Below are positions 27,013-33,238 of a stretch of DNA of 52,422 bases, in pieces (within the stretch, counting starts at the first letter, position 1; each line of letters starts with the position of its first letter). Both the position numbers and the translations under genes were made by a program. The notes under the pieces were generated by a model. It had not been told where the DNA came from. It did no database searches and was given only the letters and a program-made list of their open reading frames with translations. Source of the DNA: Coriobacteriia bacterium (GTDB taxonomy: Bacteria > Actinomycetota > Coriobacteriia > Anaerosomatales > Anaerosomataceae); NCBI GenBank assembly GCA_026416035.1, contig JAOAFY010000004.1:1-52422 (forward strand), given 5' to 3'.

Positions 27013-27788
27013 AGGCGCGCCAACTCCCCCACGGCAAGCCACGCGGCCGCACACGCCAGCAGGATGGCGAACGCGTAGCGCACGGCGGTCTCGCTCGCGA
27101 CGGTCGTCAGACGAGCGCCTGCCGCGGCGCCCGGAACGACTCCCAGCACGAGTCCTGCGGCGATGGAAAGGTCCACGTGGCCGAGGGCGTAGTGGGCGAC
27201 GCTTCCTGGTATTGCCAGCATGGCGACTGCAAGGAGGCTCGTGCCGATGGCGCGCTTCAGGCCGTACCCGAGCCACCGTGCGAGCAGCGGGACGATCACG
27301 AAGCCCCCGCCAAGCCCGAGGAAGCCCGAGTACAAGCCCGCCGCCACGCCGACCGCTGCGAGCTCCGGCACCGACGGCGGCCCCGGGCGCTCCCGCACCC
27401 GCTCCGGCGCAGTGCCGCTCCGTGCCGCCCACGACAGCACGTCGGCGGCCACGTACAGCATCAGTGCGGCGGTCGCGAGCATGACGATGGCCCCGCCCGC
27501 TGCCGCACTCGCAGCAGCCCCGGCCACGGCTGCCAGCGAACCGACGGCCGCGATCGTGACGGAGGCACGGACGTCGACCAGCCCGCGGCGCAGGTAGGCC
27601 AACGCACCCGTGACCGCACCCGGCACGATCACCGGAAGCGGCGTCCCGACGGCTACCAGCGCAGGTGCGCCGAGCAACAGGCGGATCGCCGGAGTCGTCA
27701 CGATACCGCCTCCGATGCCGAACGCCCCCGACAGCACGCCGGAGACGGCTCCGATCGCGAACGAGAGCAGGACAGCCGAGAGGCTCAT
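27009..27788 (-). CDS. TauE/SafE-family (TSUP) membrane protein
   Basis: A 259-residue protein with about eight hydrophobic helices and the glycine-rich TSUP repeats SGVLSGAFGIGGGIVTTPAIRLL and YSGFLGLGGGFVIVPLLAR. The family exports or imports sulfur- or carbon-containing anions such as sulfite or sulfoacetate. Its ATG overlaps the glycosyltransferase stop. No sulfur enzyme is next to it, so the substrate remains open. Confidence 0.9.
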   Translation of the reverse strand: MSLSAVLLSFAIGAVSGVLSGAFGIGGGIVTTPAIRLLLGAPALVAVGTPLPVIVPGAVTGALAYLRRGLVDVRASVTIAAVGSLAAVAGAAASAAAGGAIVMLATAALMLYVAADVLSWAARSGTAPERVRERPGPPSVPELAAVGVAAGLYSGFLGLGGGFVIVPLLARWLGYGLKRAIGTSLLAVAMLAIPGSVAHYALGHVDLSIAAGLVLGVVPGAAAGARLTTVASETAVRYAFAILLACAAAWLAVGELARL

Positions 27789-29029
27789 CGCTCCGATGGC
27801 ACCACCGGGAATCTGCCCGTGATAGCGCTCCTGTCGATACGGCGCTCACCCGTGAACAGCGTCTTGAGGGGGATGTCCTCCCAGAGCCGGTCCATCAGCA
27901 TCGGCCAGCGCCGCTGGAAGGAGAAGTAGCGTTCGCAGTGGTCGCGCGCATACTCGTTCGCACGCCGGACGCCCCTGCGGGCGACGTCGAGGTACGCCCC
28001 GGGTTCCTTGCCAGCGAGCGCGCGGAACAGCGCGGTCAGGCGCGCACGCCACACCACCGAACCCTCCACGAACGGTCCGGGGTAAGGCATCAGGGAGGAC
28101 GGCGTGACCTGCCGCAGATCCACCTGCGACTTGGAGAACTCGAGCTTGCGGTGCTCGTACACGAACCTGAACACGTCCTGCCTGAACGCCTCAGCCTCGC
28201 TGGGCACCCTAGGAGGTTGGTGGATGACGGACCACTCGCCGTCGAGAAACACGTCCCCGCCATGCATCCGCACGTTGATGACGTAATCGATGTCTTCTCC
28301 CCGCGCCACCCACGGGTCGAACGGCACCGTGCAGTAGAGGTCGCGGTGGATGGCGAGGCACCCGCCCATCGCCACCGTGCTGGGAGTGATGCGCGGCGGA
28401 CGCCCGACCGCTGCAAGCGCCTCGGTGAAGGCGTCATCCTGACGCCAGAACATGTCGTACCAGGGCGCATCGCCTGCGAACTGGTACCTCCCCTGCTCGT
28501 CGGTGTAGTAGCCGCTCTTCGCCAGCACGATCCTGCCCTTGCCGGTCTGCTCGCCGATCCCTTCCATCGCCCGAGAGAGGAACGCTGGGTCTGTCACGAC
28601 CTGGTCGTCATCGACGAACACTGCGACATCGCACCCGAGAGTCGCCGCCACCATCAGGCCCACGTTGCGCACAGCGCCGTAGCTCCCGAGGGTCACGCCG
28701 TCCAGCACGTCGGCAAACTCGAGCTGCTCAAGCCTCCGATGAAGCGAACCCATCTCGGCCGGACCGACCACGAGCGCATCGAGCCCCGGGAAGTCCGCCA
28801 TGATCTCACGCACCCGGTCCTCCGCCTCGTGCTCGACCGAGGCGTGCGTCGCCGCGACGATCAGCACGACGCGCCCGAGCCCCTCGACCGCTTCGAGAGA
28901 CCGGAGGCACTCAGGCAGGGTGCCGTCTTCGTCCACCGGTGTGGGGTGGTCGTAGCGGAACGGACCGTCGTCCGAGCTCCTTGGCCTGCGCCGAGTCCAG
29001 AAGGTCGGTATGATCACGCACGGTTGCAA
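27785..29029 (-). CDS. Family 2-like glycosyltransferase
   Basis: A 414-residue cytoplasmic enzyme beginning QPCVIIPTFWTR, a GT-A nucleotide-sugar-binding start, with the DxD-like metal motif in VAVFVDDDQVV and the acceptor-side motif ARGEDIDYVIN (ED). No membrane helix was seen. The start is the TTG at 29029 with AAGGAAGGTG 4 bases upstream; a GTG at 29017 is an alternative. Sugar donor and acceptor are unknown. Confidence 0.85.
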   Translation of the reverse strand: MQPCVIIPTFWTRRRPRSSDDGPFRYDHPTPVDEDGTLPECLRSLEAVEGLGRVVLIVAATHASVEHEAEDRVREIMADFPGLDALVVGPAEMGSLHRRLEQLEFADVLDGVTLGSYGAVRNVGLMVAATLGCDVAVFVDDDQVVTDPAFLSRAMEGIGEQTGKGRIVLAKSGYYTDEQGRYQFAGDAPWYDMFWRQDDAFTEALAAVGRPPRITPSTVAMGGCLAIHRDLYCTVPFDPWVARGEDIDYVINVRMHGGDVFLDGEWSVIHQPPRVPSEAEAFRQDVFRFVYEHRKLEFSKSQVDLRQVTPSSLMPYPGPFVEGSVVWRARLTALFRALAGKEPGAYLDVARRGVRRANEYARDHCERYFSFQRRWPMLMDRLWEDIPLKTLFTGERRIDRSAITGRFPVVPSER

Positions 29030-29101: not shown

Positions 29102-29752
29102 TCAGACGGCTTCCTCGACCGTCTCCGGCCGCACCAGGCAACGCTGCACGGCTTCACGGATGACCGCGTACGGCCTCGACCCGATGAGAAGCTCGTTGCA
29201 GATGAGGGCAGACGGCGTCCCGCGTATTCCCAGGTGCAACGCGAGGTGCCGGAACTGGTGCAGCCGCTCGTCGTACCGGCCGCTTTCCCACACCTCGGAC
29301 ATCTCCGCCCTTTCAAGGCCGTGCCGCTCGCCGACCGCGGCAAGCACCTCCCGGTCGCCGATGTCCCGACCGTGCACGAAGTACTCCCGGAAGATGTCCA
29401 GGTGCAGCGGCCAGAACTCGGCCTCTCCTCGGTCGCGACCCATCTCGGCCAACGCCATCGCGTCGTGCGTCTTCGGAACCAGGTCTGGCAGCACCATGCG
29501 CTCGCCCTCCTTCTCGGCGAGCTCGATCAGCCGCGACTCCACGCGCGGCGAGTGGCCGAGCCCGTCGCGCGATGCCGACAGCCCCTCTCGCGGCATGTCC
29601 GGCCTCAGCTCGAAGGGCACGGCGAACAGATCGACAGGCATCTCGTCTCGGAGCCGCAGGAACCTGAACTGGTCCACGAAGCAGAACGGTCAAGCGTAGT
29701 CGTAGAACTCCAGGATGCGGGGGACGACTTCGGGTGCTCTATGCTCGGCCAT
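29102..29752 (-). CDS. Putative selenocysteine-containing DsbA/FrnE-like thiol oxidoreductase
   Basis: A 216-residue DsbA/FrnE-like thioredoxin-fold protein if the in-frame UGA at 29690-29692 is read as selenocysteine (residue 21). The N-terminus is MAEHRAPEVVPRILEFYDYA, then U-P-F-C, so UGA stands exactly at the first Cys of the CxxC active site (DYACPFC expected). After it the frame is intact for 195 residues, with the family pattern PFELRPDMP and the cis-Pro loop IRGTPSALIC. A bSECIS-like hairpin follows the UGA. ATG 29752 has GAGAGGAG 5 bases upstream and lies 11 bases after the radical SAM stop. Automatic annotation would start at GTG 29677 and lose the active site. A plain nonsense mutation or sequencing error is the alternative. 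Confidence 0.8.
29655..29678 (-). promoter_or_regulatory. bSECIS-like hairpin downstream of the UGA codon
   Basis: Starting 12 bases after the UGA, an 8-pair stem (C-G, G-C, U-G, G-C, G-C, A-U, C-G, C-G) with two single-U bulges on the 3' side closes a 6-base AGUUCA loop. The loop begins 20 bases after UGA and has G as its second base. Distance, loop G and bulged U agree with bacterial SECIS elements bound by SelB. The pairing was worked out by hand. Confidence 0.65.
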
Positions 29753-29763
29753 CGCGGCTCCTC

Positions 29764-30774
29764 TCACTCCACCAGCTCCAGCGGCTCGCCGCAGCGGGCG
29801 CACGCCCCATCACGGGTCGCCCGTTCGAGCACGCGGTAGCCGTCCCGCTCGATCGCGCGAGCGCCGCAGCGCGGGCACACGGTGTCCTCCCCGCCCGGCT
29901 CGGCGACGTTGCCGAGGTAGACGAATGCGAGACCCTCTTCGGCGCCGATCGCCTTGAAGCGCCTGAGCGTGTCGATCGGCGTCGGCGGCAGGTGCGCGAG
30001 CTCGAGGTACGGGAAGAACCGCGTCACGTGCCACGGCGTCTTCGGCCCGAGGAAGTCGCGTATCCAGCGCGCGATGTCCCGCGCACTGTCGTCCGAGTCA
30101 TTGATCGACGGCACCACGTTCGTGACGACCTCCACGTGCATCCCCCAGCGCTCCTTCGCGCGGACCGCCCCTTCGAGCACGGGCGTCGCCGAGCGCACCT
30201 TGCACAGGCGGCGGTAGGTCTCGTCGTCGGCGCCCTTGACGTCCACGCGCCACACGTCGATGTACGGGCCGAGGTAGTCCAATCCCGCTGCCGTGATGTA
30301 GCCGTTCGTCACCATGACCGTGTAGAGCCCGTCGCTCCGCGCCATGGCAGCAGTGTCCCGCACGAACTCAGCCCAGATCACCGGCTCGTTGTAGGTGAAG
30401 GCGATCCCTTCGCACACCTCCGCTCGGGCGAGGGCGATCACGTCGTCGGGCGACAGCCGCCGTATGCCGCCGTCTTCCAGACGAGCGCGGCTGATCGTCC
30501 AATTCTGGCAGTGCAGACAGCGCATCGTGCACCCCACGCTGCCGAGCGAAAGAGCGCGCGTCCCTGGGCGGTAGTGGAACACGGGCTTCTTCTCAATCGG
30601 ATCGACCGCGATGGACGAGACTGCGCCGTAGCTCGCTGCGACGAGCCGTCCGCCTTCATTGCGTCGCACGCCGCACACGCCGCTCGAACCCGCGGGGATC
30701 CGGCACGCATGTGGACACAGGAGGCACTGCGCCGCGCCGCCTTCGACTTGCTCCCAAAGGTCGGCCTCGCGCAC
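29764..30774 (-). CDS. AmmeMemoRadiSam-type radical SAM enzyme
   Basis: A 336-residue radical SAM protein with the cluster motif CTMRCLHC (CxxxCxxC) near residue 104. Two CxxC knuckles precede it (CLLCPHACRI, SGVCGVRRN) and a zinc-ribbon pair closes it (CPRCGARA, CARCGEPLE). This is the layout of the AmmeMemoRadiSam/PflA-like activating-enzyme subfamily, whose substrate is undefined. Its usual AMMECR1 and Memo partners are absent here. GTG 30774 has AGGAG 6 bases upstream, 12 bases after the hydrogenase-like gene. Confidence 0.9.
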   Translation of the reverse strand: MREADLWEQVEGGAAQCLLCPHACRIPAGSSGVCGVRRNEGGRLVAASYGAVSSIAVDPIEKKPVFHYRPGTRALSLGSVGCTMRCLHCQNWTISRARLEDGGIRRLSPDDVIALARAEVCEGIAFTYNEPVIWAEFVRDTAAMARSDGLYTVMVTNGYITAAGLDYLGPYIDVWRVDVKGADDETYRRLCKVRSATPVLEGAVRAKERWGMHVEVVTNVVPSINDSDDSARDIARWIRDFLGPKTPWHVTRFFPYLELAHLPPTPIDTLRRFKAIGAEEGLAFVYLGNVAEPGGEDTVCPRCGARAIERDGYRVLERATRDGACARCGEPLELVE

Positions 30775-30786
30775 GTGACGCTCCTC

Positions 30787-32583
30787 CTATCCTGACGAAG
30801 CGATCCTTACCTGGTCACAGCCGTGCTTCTGGGCCTCACGCAGCGCCCGCTCCGCTGCCTCGACGAGCTCGTCGCCGGACACGATGCCCTGATGGGCGGA
30901 TGCGACTCCAGCGCACACGGTCGCCTGCACCTCACCTGTATACCCTGACTGTGCTTCGAAGCGGCTCTCCGCGACCAGCGCTCGCAGCTTCTCCGCAACC
31001 GCGAATGCAGCGGTCTTGCCGATCCCAGGCAGCAAGAGGGCGAACTGGTCACCGCCGATCCGCGCCAGTGCATCGGTGGACCGGATGCTCGCCGAGAGAA
31101 GCTCGGCGATCCGCCGGAGCATCTCGTCTGCGGCTTCTTCTCCCAACCGGTCGTTCAGCGCTCCGAACTCATCAATGTCGAGCATCACGAGCGAGAGGTG
31201 CCCGCCGTATCGCGACAAGCGGGCGACCTCCATCTCAAGACGCTCCTGAAATGCCCGGCCGTTCCACACGCCGGTCAGCTCGTCGATGGTCGTCAGGGCG
31301 CGGACCGCCTCCTGCGCGCTGCGAAGCCGCTTGCGCTGCAACGGGAAGCACATCTCCCAGCTGGACTCGCCGCGGAAGATGGCTTCTGCGTGCTCGACGC
31401 ACGTCCGATGCCCGCACGCCCCGCAATCCAGCACGGCCGCCCGAGACGCAAAGCCGCCTTCGGCGAGAACGGCGTCGAGAGCCGCGTCCGACGGCCGTGG
31501 AACGTGGACCGGCTCTGGACGGAACGAGCGGATGGTGTCTACACGCGGCAGCACTTCAATCAGAGTGCGCGTGCTGACGGCTGCCACTCCCGGTGCTCCT
31601 CGCGAGGTGCGGTCGAGGTTCCGCTTCGCGAACAGCGACATCCCCGGGTTGACCGCCGGACCGTCGATGCATCCTTCGCAGTTCAGGGCGTCGATGAGCT
31701 TCGGAGCGGTCTCTCCGGCCGCGATCGCCTTCAGAACGCGATCCAGCGCTGAAAGGCCACGCACCACGTGCACGTCGCCGTCCAGTGAGCACTGCCGTGC
31801 GAACGTCTCTCGCGGGAACCCATCCGTGAGCGACACCTGCTTCAGCAGCCGTGGCCGAGGCGCAGGGCTTGCACTCGCCGCCCTCACCGCACCGGCACGC
31901 TCGCACGCGATGATCATCTGCTTCAGCTCGAGGAAGTCGATCGCCGCATCGACAGACCCGCCGACCTCCGGGTCGAACACTTCGTCCTTCCGAGCGTAGC
32001 AAGGTCCGATGTACACCACGGCAGCGTCGTGGTCGTAGAGCTGCCTGATCAGGCGCGCCTGAGCGATGTATGGCGGCACGATCGGCGCGAGGGCCGACAC
32101 CAGCGACGGATGGAACTTCTGGACGAATCTGACCACGACAGGGCACGTCGACCGTATCAGGAACAGCGCCGAGTCCCGTGCGAGCGCCCGCTCGTACTCG
32201 AGCGCGACCATCTCCTCGCCAAGCGCCGTCGTCTCCACCGATGCGAACCCGAGACCTGCCAGCGCCCGTTCGACCGCAAGAGGCGTCATCGGATGCAGAG
32301 CGGCGATGAACTCCGACGCGAGCAGCGCGACCACCGTCCGGCGCGATCTCAGCAGGTCCCACACCGCGGCCGTGTCGTCTCTGACCGAGTGCGCCCCTGC
32401 TCCGCATTCCGTGACGCACAGGCCGCAGGCCACGCACTTCTCCTCGATGACCTCGGAACGCCCGTCCAGCACGCGGATCGCGCGCACAGGGCATACGCGC
32501 ACGCACCCCCAGCACTCGTGGCACGTCACGCCGTCATGACGGATGAGGGGTCCGCGCGGACCTGCCTCGGTCGCTTCAGCCAT
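30787..32583 (-). CDS. [FeFe]-hydrogenase-like redox sensor fused to a degenerate GGDEF domain
   Basis: A 598-residue protein. Residues 19-70 are a two-[4Fe-4S] ferredoxin (CHECWGCVRVCP, CVACGLCVTEC). Residues 80-380 are an H-cluster-type domain: STCPVVV, GPCYARKDE and NCEGCIDGP take the places of TSCCPAW, MPCTAKKxE and the CxxxC motif. The proton-relay Cys is Thr, the Lys is Arg, and the last pair is spaced CxxC, so catalysis is unlikely. Around residue 410 a CGACGHRTC iron-sulfur motif follows. The last 170 residues are a GGDEF-like domain with GGDQF (510-514) and an RxxD motif (501-504). H2 or redox sensing linked to c-di-GMP is inferred. ATG 32583 is chosen; 32598 is possible. It overlaps the QueT stop by 8 bases. 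Confidence 0.85.
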   Translation of the reverse strand: MAEATEAGPRGPLIRHDGVTCHECWGCVRVCPVRAIRVLDGRSEVIEEKCVACGLCVTECGAGAHSVRDDTAAVWDLLRSRRTVVALLASEFIAALHPMTPLAVERALAGLGFASVETTALGEEMVALEYERALARDSALFLIRSTCPVVVRFVQKFHPSLVSALAPIVPPYIAQARLIRQLYDHDAAVVYIGPCYARKDEVFDPEVGGSVDAAIDFLELKQMIIACERAGAVRAASASPAPRPRLLKQVSLTDGFPRETFARQCSLDGDVHVVRGLSALDRVLKAIAAGETAPKLIDALNCEGCIDGPAVNPGMSLFAKRNLDRTSRGAPGVAAVSTRTLIEVLPRVDTIRSFRPEPVHVPRPSDAALDAVLAEGGFASRAAVLDCGACGHRTCVEHAEAIFRGESSWEMCFPLQRKRLRSAQEAVRALTTIDELTGVWNGRAFQERLEMEVARLSRYGGHLSLVMLDIDEFGALNDRLGEEAADEMLRRIAELLSASIRSTDALARIGGDQFALLLPGIGKTAAFAVAEKLRALVAESRFEAQSGYTGEVQATVCAGVASAHQGIVSGDELVEAAERALREAQKHGCDQVRIASSG

Positions 32584-33238
32584 GGCCTCCCCGTCCATGC
32601 CCCAACGCCGGATCCTCGTCGCCCCCAACGATACGCGCTGCCCCGGACAGCCGCAACGCGAGAGCAAGAGGACCTCCTACCAGGTACACGACCGCAGCCT
32701 CGCCAGCGGCAATCGTGACGGCCCCGAACAAGAACATCCACACCCACGATTCATCGACGCGGATGCCGAACACCACCTGATCGTACATGCCGGTCGCTGC
32801 GAGCACGATCGGCAGGTACGCCGCCACGATCAGCGCGTTGGCGACCACGGGGCCGAGCAGCGCGATGCCTGGCCTGCGTCTGTGCCTGAACGTCCACACT
32901 GCGCCCAGGAAGGTCGCGAGCGAGCCGAAGAACACGTCCAGGAGCGCGCTCGCACCGAACTGCGCCACCATAGCGCCATTCGCCACGGCACACCCTATGG
33001 CAAGCCCCGGTATCGCGGCCGGAGTGAACAACGCGAGCACGGTCAGCGCTTCGGACAGCCGCAGCTGGACGGGCCCGTACGTCAGCGGGTTCTGGATGAA
33101 CGGGATGGTTGCAGCAGCGTACAGCGCCGCGATGAGCCCTGCTTGCGTCACGTATCGGGACCGCCGAGCGATCAGGCCTGCGGCCGGCTGCCCGCCGCCA
33201 TCAGACGTGTCAGCGCGATTCCTCTTGGACCCGCTCAT
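32576..33238 (-). CDS. queT: QueT-type ECF transporter substrate component
   Basis: A 220-residue membrane protein with about six helices and the QueT motif VQLRLSEALTVLALFTPAAIPG. QueT is the S component that imports queuosine precursors with a shared EcfAAT module, which is not encoded here. A 30-residue soluble N-terminus precedes the first helix. It overlaps the histidine kinase by 4 bases and the hydrogenase-like gene by 8, so it is embedded in a longer transcript and has no preQ1 riboswitch of its own. Confidence 0.82.
   Translation of the reverse strand: MSGSKRNRADTSDGGGQPAAGLIARRSRYVTQAGLIAALYAAATIPFIQNPLTYGPVQLRLSEALTVLALFTPAAIPGLAIGCAVANGAMVAQFGASALLDVFFGSLATFLGAVWTFRHRRRPGIALLGPVVANALIVAAYLPIVLAATGMYDQVVFGIRVDESWVWMFLFGAVTIAAGEAAVVYLVGGPLALALRLSGAARIVGGDEDPALGHGRGGHG

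Follow-up and report, generated by a model that had tools for sequence, protein, structure and literature searches.

The in-frame UGA at codon 21 of a DsbA/FrnE-like protein from an Anaerosomatales bacterium almost certainly encodes selenocysteine (Sec). We read the sequence this way because UGA and Cys exchange at this position among homologues, the genome carries Sec machinery, a conserved hairpin follows the UGA, selection acts on the sequence past it, and the predicted fold is that of a redox enzyme family with its catalytic residue at this site.

An in-frame UGA in the active site of a DsbA/FrnE-like protein

The gene lies on the minus strand of the window, the whole stretch of 52,422 nucleotides that was analysed (Table 1). 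Translation from 29752 to 29102 gave 216 residues, the only internal stop being a UGA at codon 21 in the context FYDYA-U-PFC. This bears out the claim of an earlier sequence-only reading of this DNA that a UGA stands at residue 21 of DYA-U-PFC in a frame otherwise open over 216 codons. That reading had also proposed a ribosome site at ATG 29752, where an AGGAG motif was found, and a cis-Pro loop GTPS, of which G-T179-P180 was located in both the translation and the alignment. Its expectation that standard annotation would start at GTG 29677 was likewise correct: under standard stops the ORF starts there and encodes 191 aa, without the first strand and without both active-site residues.

Table 1. 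Coordinates of the Sec gene, its features and its neighbours in the window.
Feature	Position	Strand	Evidence or detail
DsbA/FrnE-like protein, predicted to contain Sec	29102..29752	-	ATG 29752-29750, stop UGA 29104-29102; 216 residues
UGA codon 21, almost certainly read as selenocysteine; first residue of U-P-F-C active site	29690..29692	-	UGA/Cys column and Sec machinery
Cys24, resolving Cys of UxxC, invariant	29681..29683	-	alignment of homologues
Thr179-cisPro180 loop, thioredoxin fold, invariant	29213..29218	-	alignment of homologues
Cys185, invariant in Anaerosomatales clade	29198..29200	-	alignment of homologues
Cys205, invariant in Anaerosomatales clade	29138..29140	-	alignment of homologues
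AGGAG ribosome-binding motif, 5 bases 5' of ATG 29752	29758..29762	-	sequence
SECIS-like element (UGA and hairpin)	29657..29692	-	template scan and pair 18-34 change
Radical SAM enzyme, AmmeMemoRadiSam type, upstream neighbour	29764..30774	-	TIGR04337, E 6.6e-91
Glycosyltransferase-2-like protein, downstream neighbour	27785..29029	-	PF13641, E 6e-4, weak, under curated cut-off

The assignment to the DsbA/FrnE group made in the sequence-only reading holds by both profile and fold. The Sec protein matched the DSBA family of Pfam (PF01323, E 5.1e-22), and both the T-P180 cis-Pro loop and a UxxC motif in place of CxxC are present. When the family profile was compared with the PDB, FrnE of Deinococcus radiodurans came first among natural proteins (E 1e-17), the sole row above it being a designed repeat protein. 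By fold, the AlphaFold model (pLDDT 93.7) came closest to the same FrnE (5cp1/5co3, TM 0.81), followed by SCO1869, a DsbA-like oxidoreductase from another member of the Actinomycetota, Streptomyces coelicolor (3gl5, TM 0.80, 24% identity). FrnE (DR_0659) thus resembles the Sec protein as its best natural profile and fold match, with a CP(W/F)C active site and a predicted cytoplasmic location, but it has Cys in place of Sec, carries its own C-terminal CX4C regenerating pair where the Sec protein has C185 and C205, and shares only 22% identity. No CX4C motif was found in the alignment of Anaerosomatales homologues. The motif is not a strict requirement of FrnE proteins, since those of S. roseofulvus and D. 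maricopensis are also without it (PMC8945050). Judging by the sequence in which strands and helices follow one another, C185 and C205 would lie at the pole opposite the active site. Inspection of the sequence and alignment revealed no visible hydrophobic segment before the first strand, and a cytoplasmic location is presumed.

No NCBIfam model reached its cut-off for the Sec protein. The only match was the Rcas_1661 family of thioredoxin-like (seleno)lipoproteins (NF041057, DsbG-like), which shares a Sec-containing thioredoxin fold but consists of lipoproteins of a different family; it scored only 25 bits where 190 are required, and was rejected as the family of this protein.

Homologues in the order and the gene neighbourhood

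Homologues were found in 40 of 69 Anaerosomatales genomes. One genome (G044) was matched in C-terminal fragments only and was excluded from the site count, leaving 39 homologues. A single-protein query against the genome contigs gave no match, and it was the alignment query that produced matches. By the names on the matching contigs, the group belongs to Coriobacteriia, Anaerosomatales; one of them is Coriobacteriaceae bacterium EMTCatB1, of the same genus.

The neighbourhood of the gene raises the question of its function. The upstream radical SAM gene ends 11 nt ahead of ATG 29752. A gene of this type is directly upstream in 37 of the 39 loci, and a glycosyltransferase-like gene follows downstream wherever the contig is long enough to show it. 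Such an arrangement would suit a protein that, while still containing Sec, serves as a redox partner dedicated to the AmmeMemoRadiSam-type enzyme instead of acting as a general disulfide reductase. We consider this improbable. In all 20 sampled genomes without a Sec or Cys homologue the radical SAM and glycosyltransferase-like genes are adjacent to each other, indicating that their order does not depend on the gene; the slot between them is either occupied or cleanly empty. Moreover, two loci have the homologue without the radical SAM gene, and none of the examined homologues outside Anaerosomatales stands beside one. The MEMO1-type component B (TIGR04336) gave no match in the genome (1.58 Mb, an assembly 92% complete), which makes the radical SAM gene an orphan here; a complete AmmeMemoRadiSam system was rejected for the same reason. 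A similarly improbable reading is that the Anaerosomatales form is a functionally distinct Sec oxidoreductase which serves this orphan enzyme, its extra C185/C205 pair acting as a relay or a structural disulfide.

Elsewhere in the window, positions 30787-32667 encode a fusion of ferredoxin, iron-hydrogenase-like, FeS and GGDEF diguanylate cyclase domains, and a c-di-GMP-II riboswitch is located at 2001-2088.

Exchange of UGA and Cys at residue 21

The sequence-only reading had singled out Cys or UGA as the residues to look for at position 21 of homologues, and the alignment column contained nothing else: 21 of the 39 Anaerosomatales homologues have UGA and 18 have Cys (referred to below as Sec forms and Cys forms). 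The same reading had judged a chance stop at this codon unlikely, in agreement with this column and with the finding of the same UGA in three other species of the genus. These three congeneric species come from separate assemblies and are 74-85% identical, and a sequencing error or a chance UGA was rejected on these grounds. For the part of the gene 3' of the UGA, dN/dS among the four congeneric species keeping it was ~0.07-0.17, indicating purifying selection.

In a phylogenetic tree the Anaerosomatales sequences grouped in a single clade (100/99), within which UGA and Cys were exchanged several times; the directions of these changes are tentative, as the tree was rooted at its midpoint. One Cys form (L022) is nested among Sec forms; this position, together with its retention of the hairpin described below, is consistent with a recent change from Sec to Cys. 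At least some of the Cys lineages look like Sec-to-Cys conversions in which the hairpin decayed afterwards.

A conserved hairpin 3' of the UGA

In each of the 21 Sec forms a common hairpin occupies nt 16-36, numbered from the U of UGA. The consensus stem GUCGACC / GGU-U-CGAC has a single bulged base in its 3' strand, and the loop is (A/G)GUUC(C/A), in which G24, U25, U26 and C27 are invariant among the 21. A hairpin just 3' of the UGA with a G in its small apical loop, as in bacterial SECIS elements, is thus present in every Sec form. In the gene studied here the stem is GGACC (29675-29671), the loop AGUUCA (29670-29665) and the 3' strand GG-U-UCC (29664-29659); in its genus the two outer pairs are mostly unformed and the stem is shorter. 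Across the seven stem pairs 90% of the alignment cells pair, whereas slid versions reach no more than 45%. In four sequences, all belonging to the window's own genus, pair 18-34 is G-C instead of C-G; this compensatory flip within one clade is probably a single event.

We scanned the genes with a template requiring at least 6 bp and, in the loop, G24 and U25. It detected the hairpin in 21/21 Sec forms and 2/18 Cys forms, and at 4.1% of control codons in the same genes, a rate that serves as a guide and not as a p-value since the template was drawn after the hairpin had been seen and the related sequences are not independent. The two hairpin-bearing Cys forms (L022 and L082) both belong to family f7, and their retention of the hairpin would fit a recent Sec-to-Cys conversion. 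Synonymous conservation over codons +1 to +11 was 0.80 in Sec forms versus 0.45 elsewhere, and 0.66 versus 0.49 in Cys forms; this stretch is thus above average in the Cys forms too, which partly reflects protein constraint or shared ancestry. Two further features separate the forms. Residue +8 is Phe in all 21 Sec forms, where the loop codon UUC forces it, and A, F, H, N, P, S or V in Cys forms. For the Ala immediately before residue 21, 16/16 Sec forms but 2/17 Cys forms use GCT, a codon that makes up ~14% of the Ala codons in the remainder of the Sec-form genes.

These observations bear on whether the UGA is a true stop, in which case the gene would be a pseudogene or would yield no more than the 191 residues encoded from GTG 29677. 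Standard annotation would call precisely that ORF, but its product would have neither the first strand nor either active-site residue, and a stop would not account for the conservation of the residues 5' of the UGA (FYDYA), for the purifying selection measured in four species that retain the UGA, or for a hairpin that follows only UGA forms and one Cys family. We therefore regard a true stop as very unlikely.

Sec-decoding machinery

The sequence-only reading had proposed looking for selA, selB, selC and selD, and all of the corresponding genes were found in the genome. selB, selA and selD lie close together on one contig (C18), each above its curated cut-off, and a tRNA-Sec with anticodon UCA is on another (C100). 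The selD gene (L070; G000 contig C18, 6395-7312) is itself a Sec gene with a UGA in SGUAAK, UxxK being the known Sec site of selD (PMC13188914). That the UGA is read as some other residue, through stop-codon reassignment or general readthrough, would explain the frame being open past it but is very unlikely, because UGA still serves as the stop codon of both the Sec gene and the radical SAM gene before it, homologues lacking the UGA all have Cys at the site, and the genome has a dedicated tRNA-Sec and SelB.

Homologues beyond Anaerosomatales

Among the 396 Actinomycetota genomes sampled, families f40, f46, f48, f54 and f68 contained FrnE-like homologues (for example L145-L157, L163 and L164) in which the codon of the first active-site Cys is likewise UGA, in contexts such as SDYI-U-PFC or PWC. 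In the alignment, C185 and C205 were absent from these other Actinomycetota Sec homologues, and with the strict Anaerosomatales hairpin template 2/16 of the Sec homologues of other families reached 6 bp.

Separately, a second, distant DsbA-fold ORF with a UGA at its active site (DVL-U-AWC) was observed in a related genome (L142; G019 contig C134, 9244-9873).

Proposed mechanism and significance

Under the Sec reading, selenocysteine would be inserted at UGA codon 21 as directed by the hairpin immediately 3' of it, bound by SelB with Sec-tRNA(Sec). The selenolate of Sec21 would then act as the nucleophile that attacks a substrate disulfide, and Cys24 would resolve the resulting mixed selenenylsulfide, leaving an oxidised U-C pair for a cellular thiol system to recharge. 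The net role is most likely that of a disulfide reductase or isomerase, a direction suggested by the predicted cytoplasmic location and by analogy with studied FrnE proteins; the studied Cys FrnE behind this analogy has a C-terminal CX4C that the Sec protein lacks. For FrnE of D. radiodurans, a role as disulfide reductase in the cytoplasm has been proposed, and the mutant shows sensitivity to cadmium and diamide (PMC8945050).

The Anaerosomatales gene is an unannotated new lineage of a kind of Sec DsbA-like protein known since 2005. COG2761 is the FrnE group. The 2005 description, from the Sargasso Sea, covered Sec DsbA-like proteins that carry UxxC and were placed in COG2761 (PMC1088965); a 2006 study gave their number in bacterial genomes (PMC1794560), and a 2026 review lists a DsbA-like protein form 1 with PF01323 and UxxC (PMC13188914). 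The nine marine sequences of the Sargasso Sea set, possibly akin to the Anaerosomatales lineage, are alike in Pfam family, UxxC motif and bacterial SECIS; a synteny of its own and the additional pair C185/C205 set the Anaerosomatales lineage apart. A search for literature joining a selenoprotein with FrnE, AmmeMemoRadiSam or Coriobacteriia found nothing relevant.

The finding leaves knowledge of Sec decoding itself unchanged. It points to a selenoprotein that is easily missed across a whole order, and apparently also in several further Actinomycetota families, since in the absence of an NCBIfam model at cut-off standard annotation is likely to cut such genes. Together, the single synteny slot, the repeated exchange of UGA and Cys and the persistence of the hairpin in one Cys family make this lineage a natural experiment on Sec/Cys exchange.
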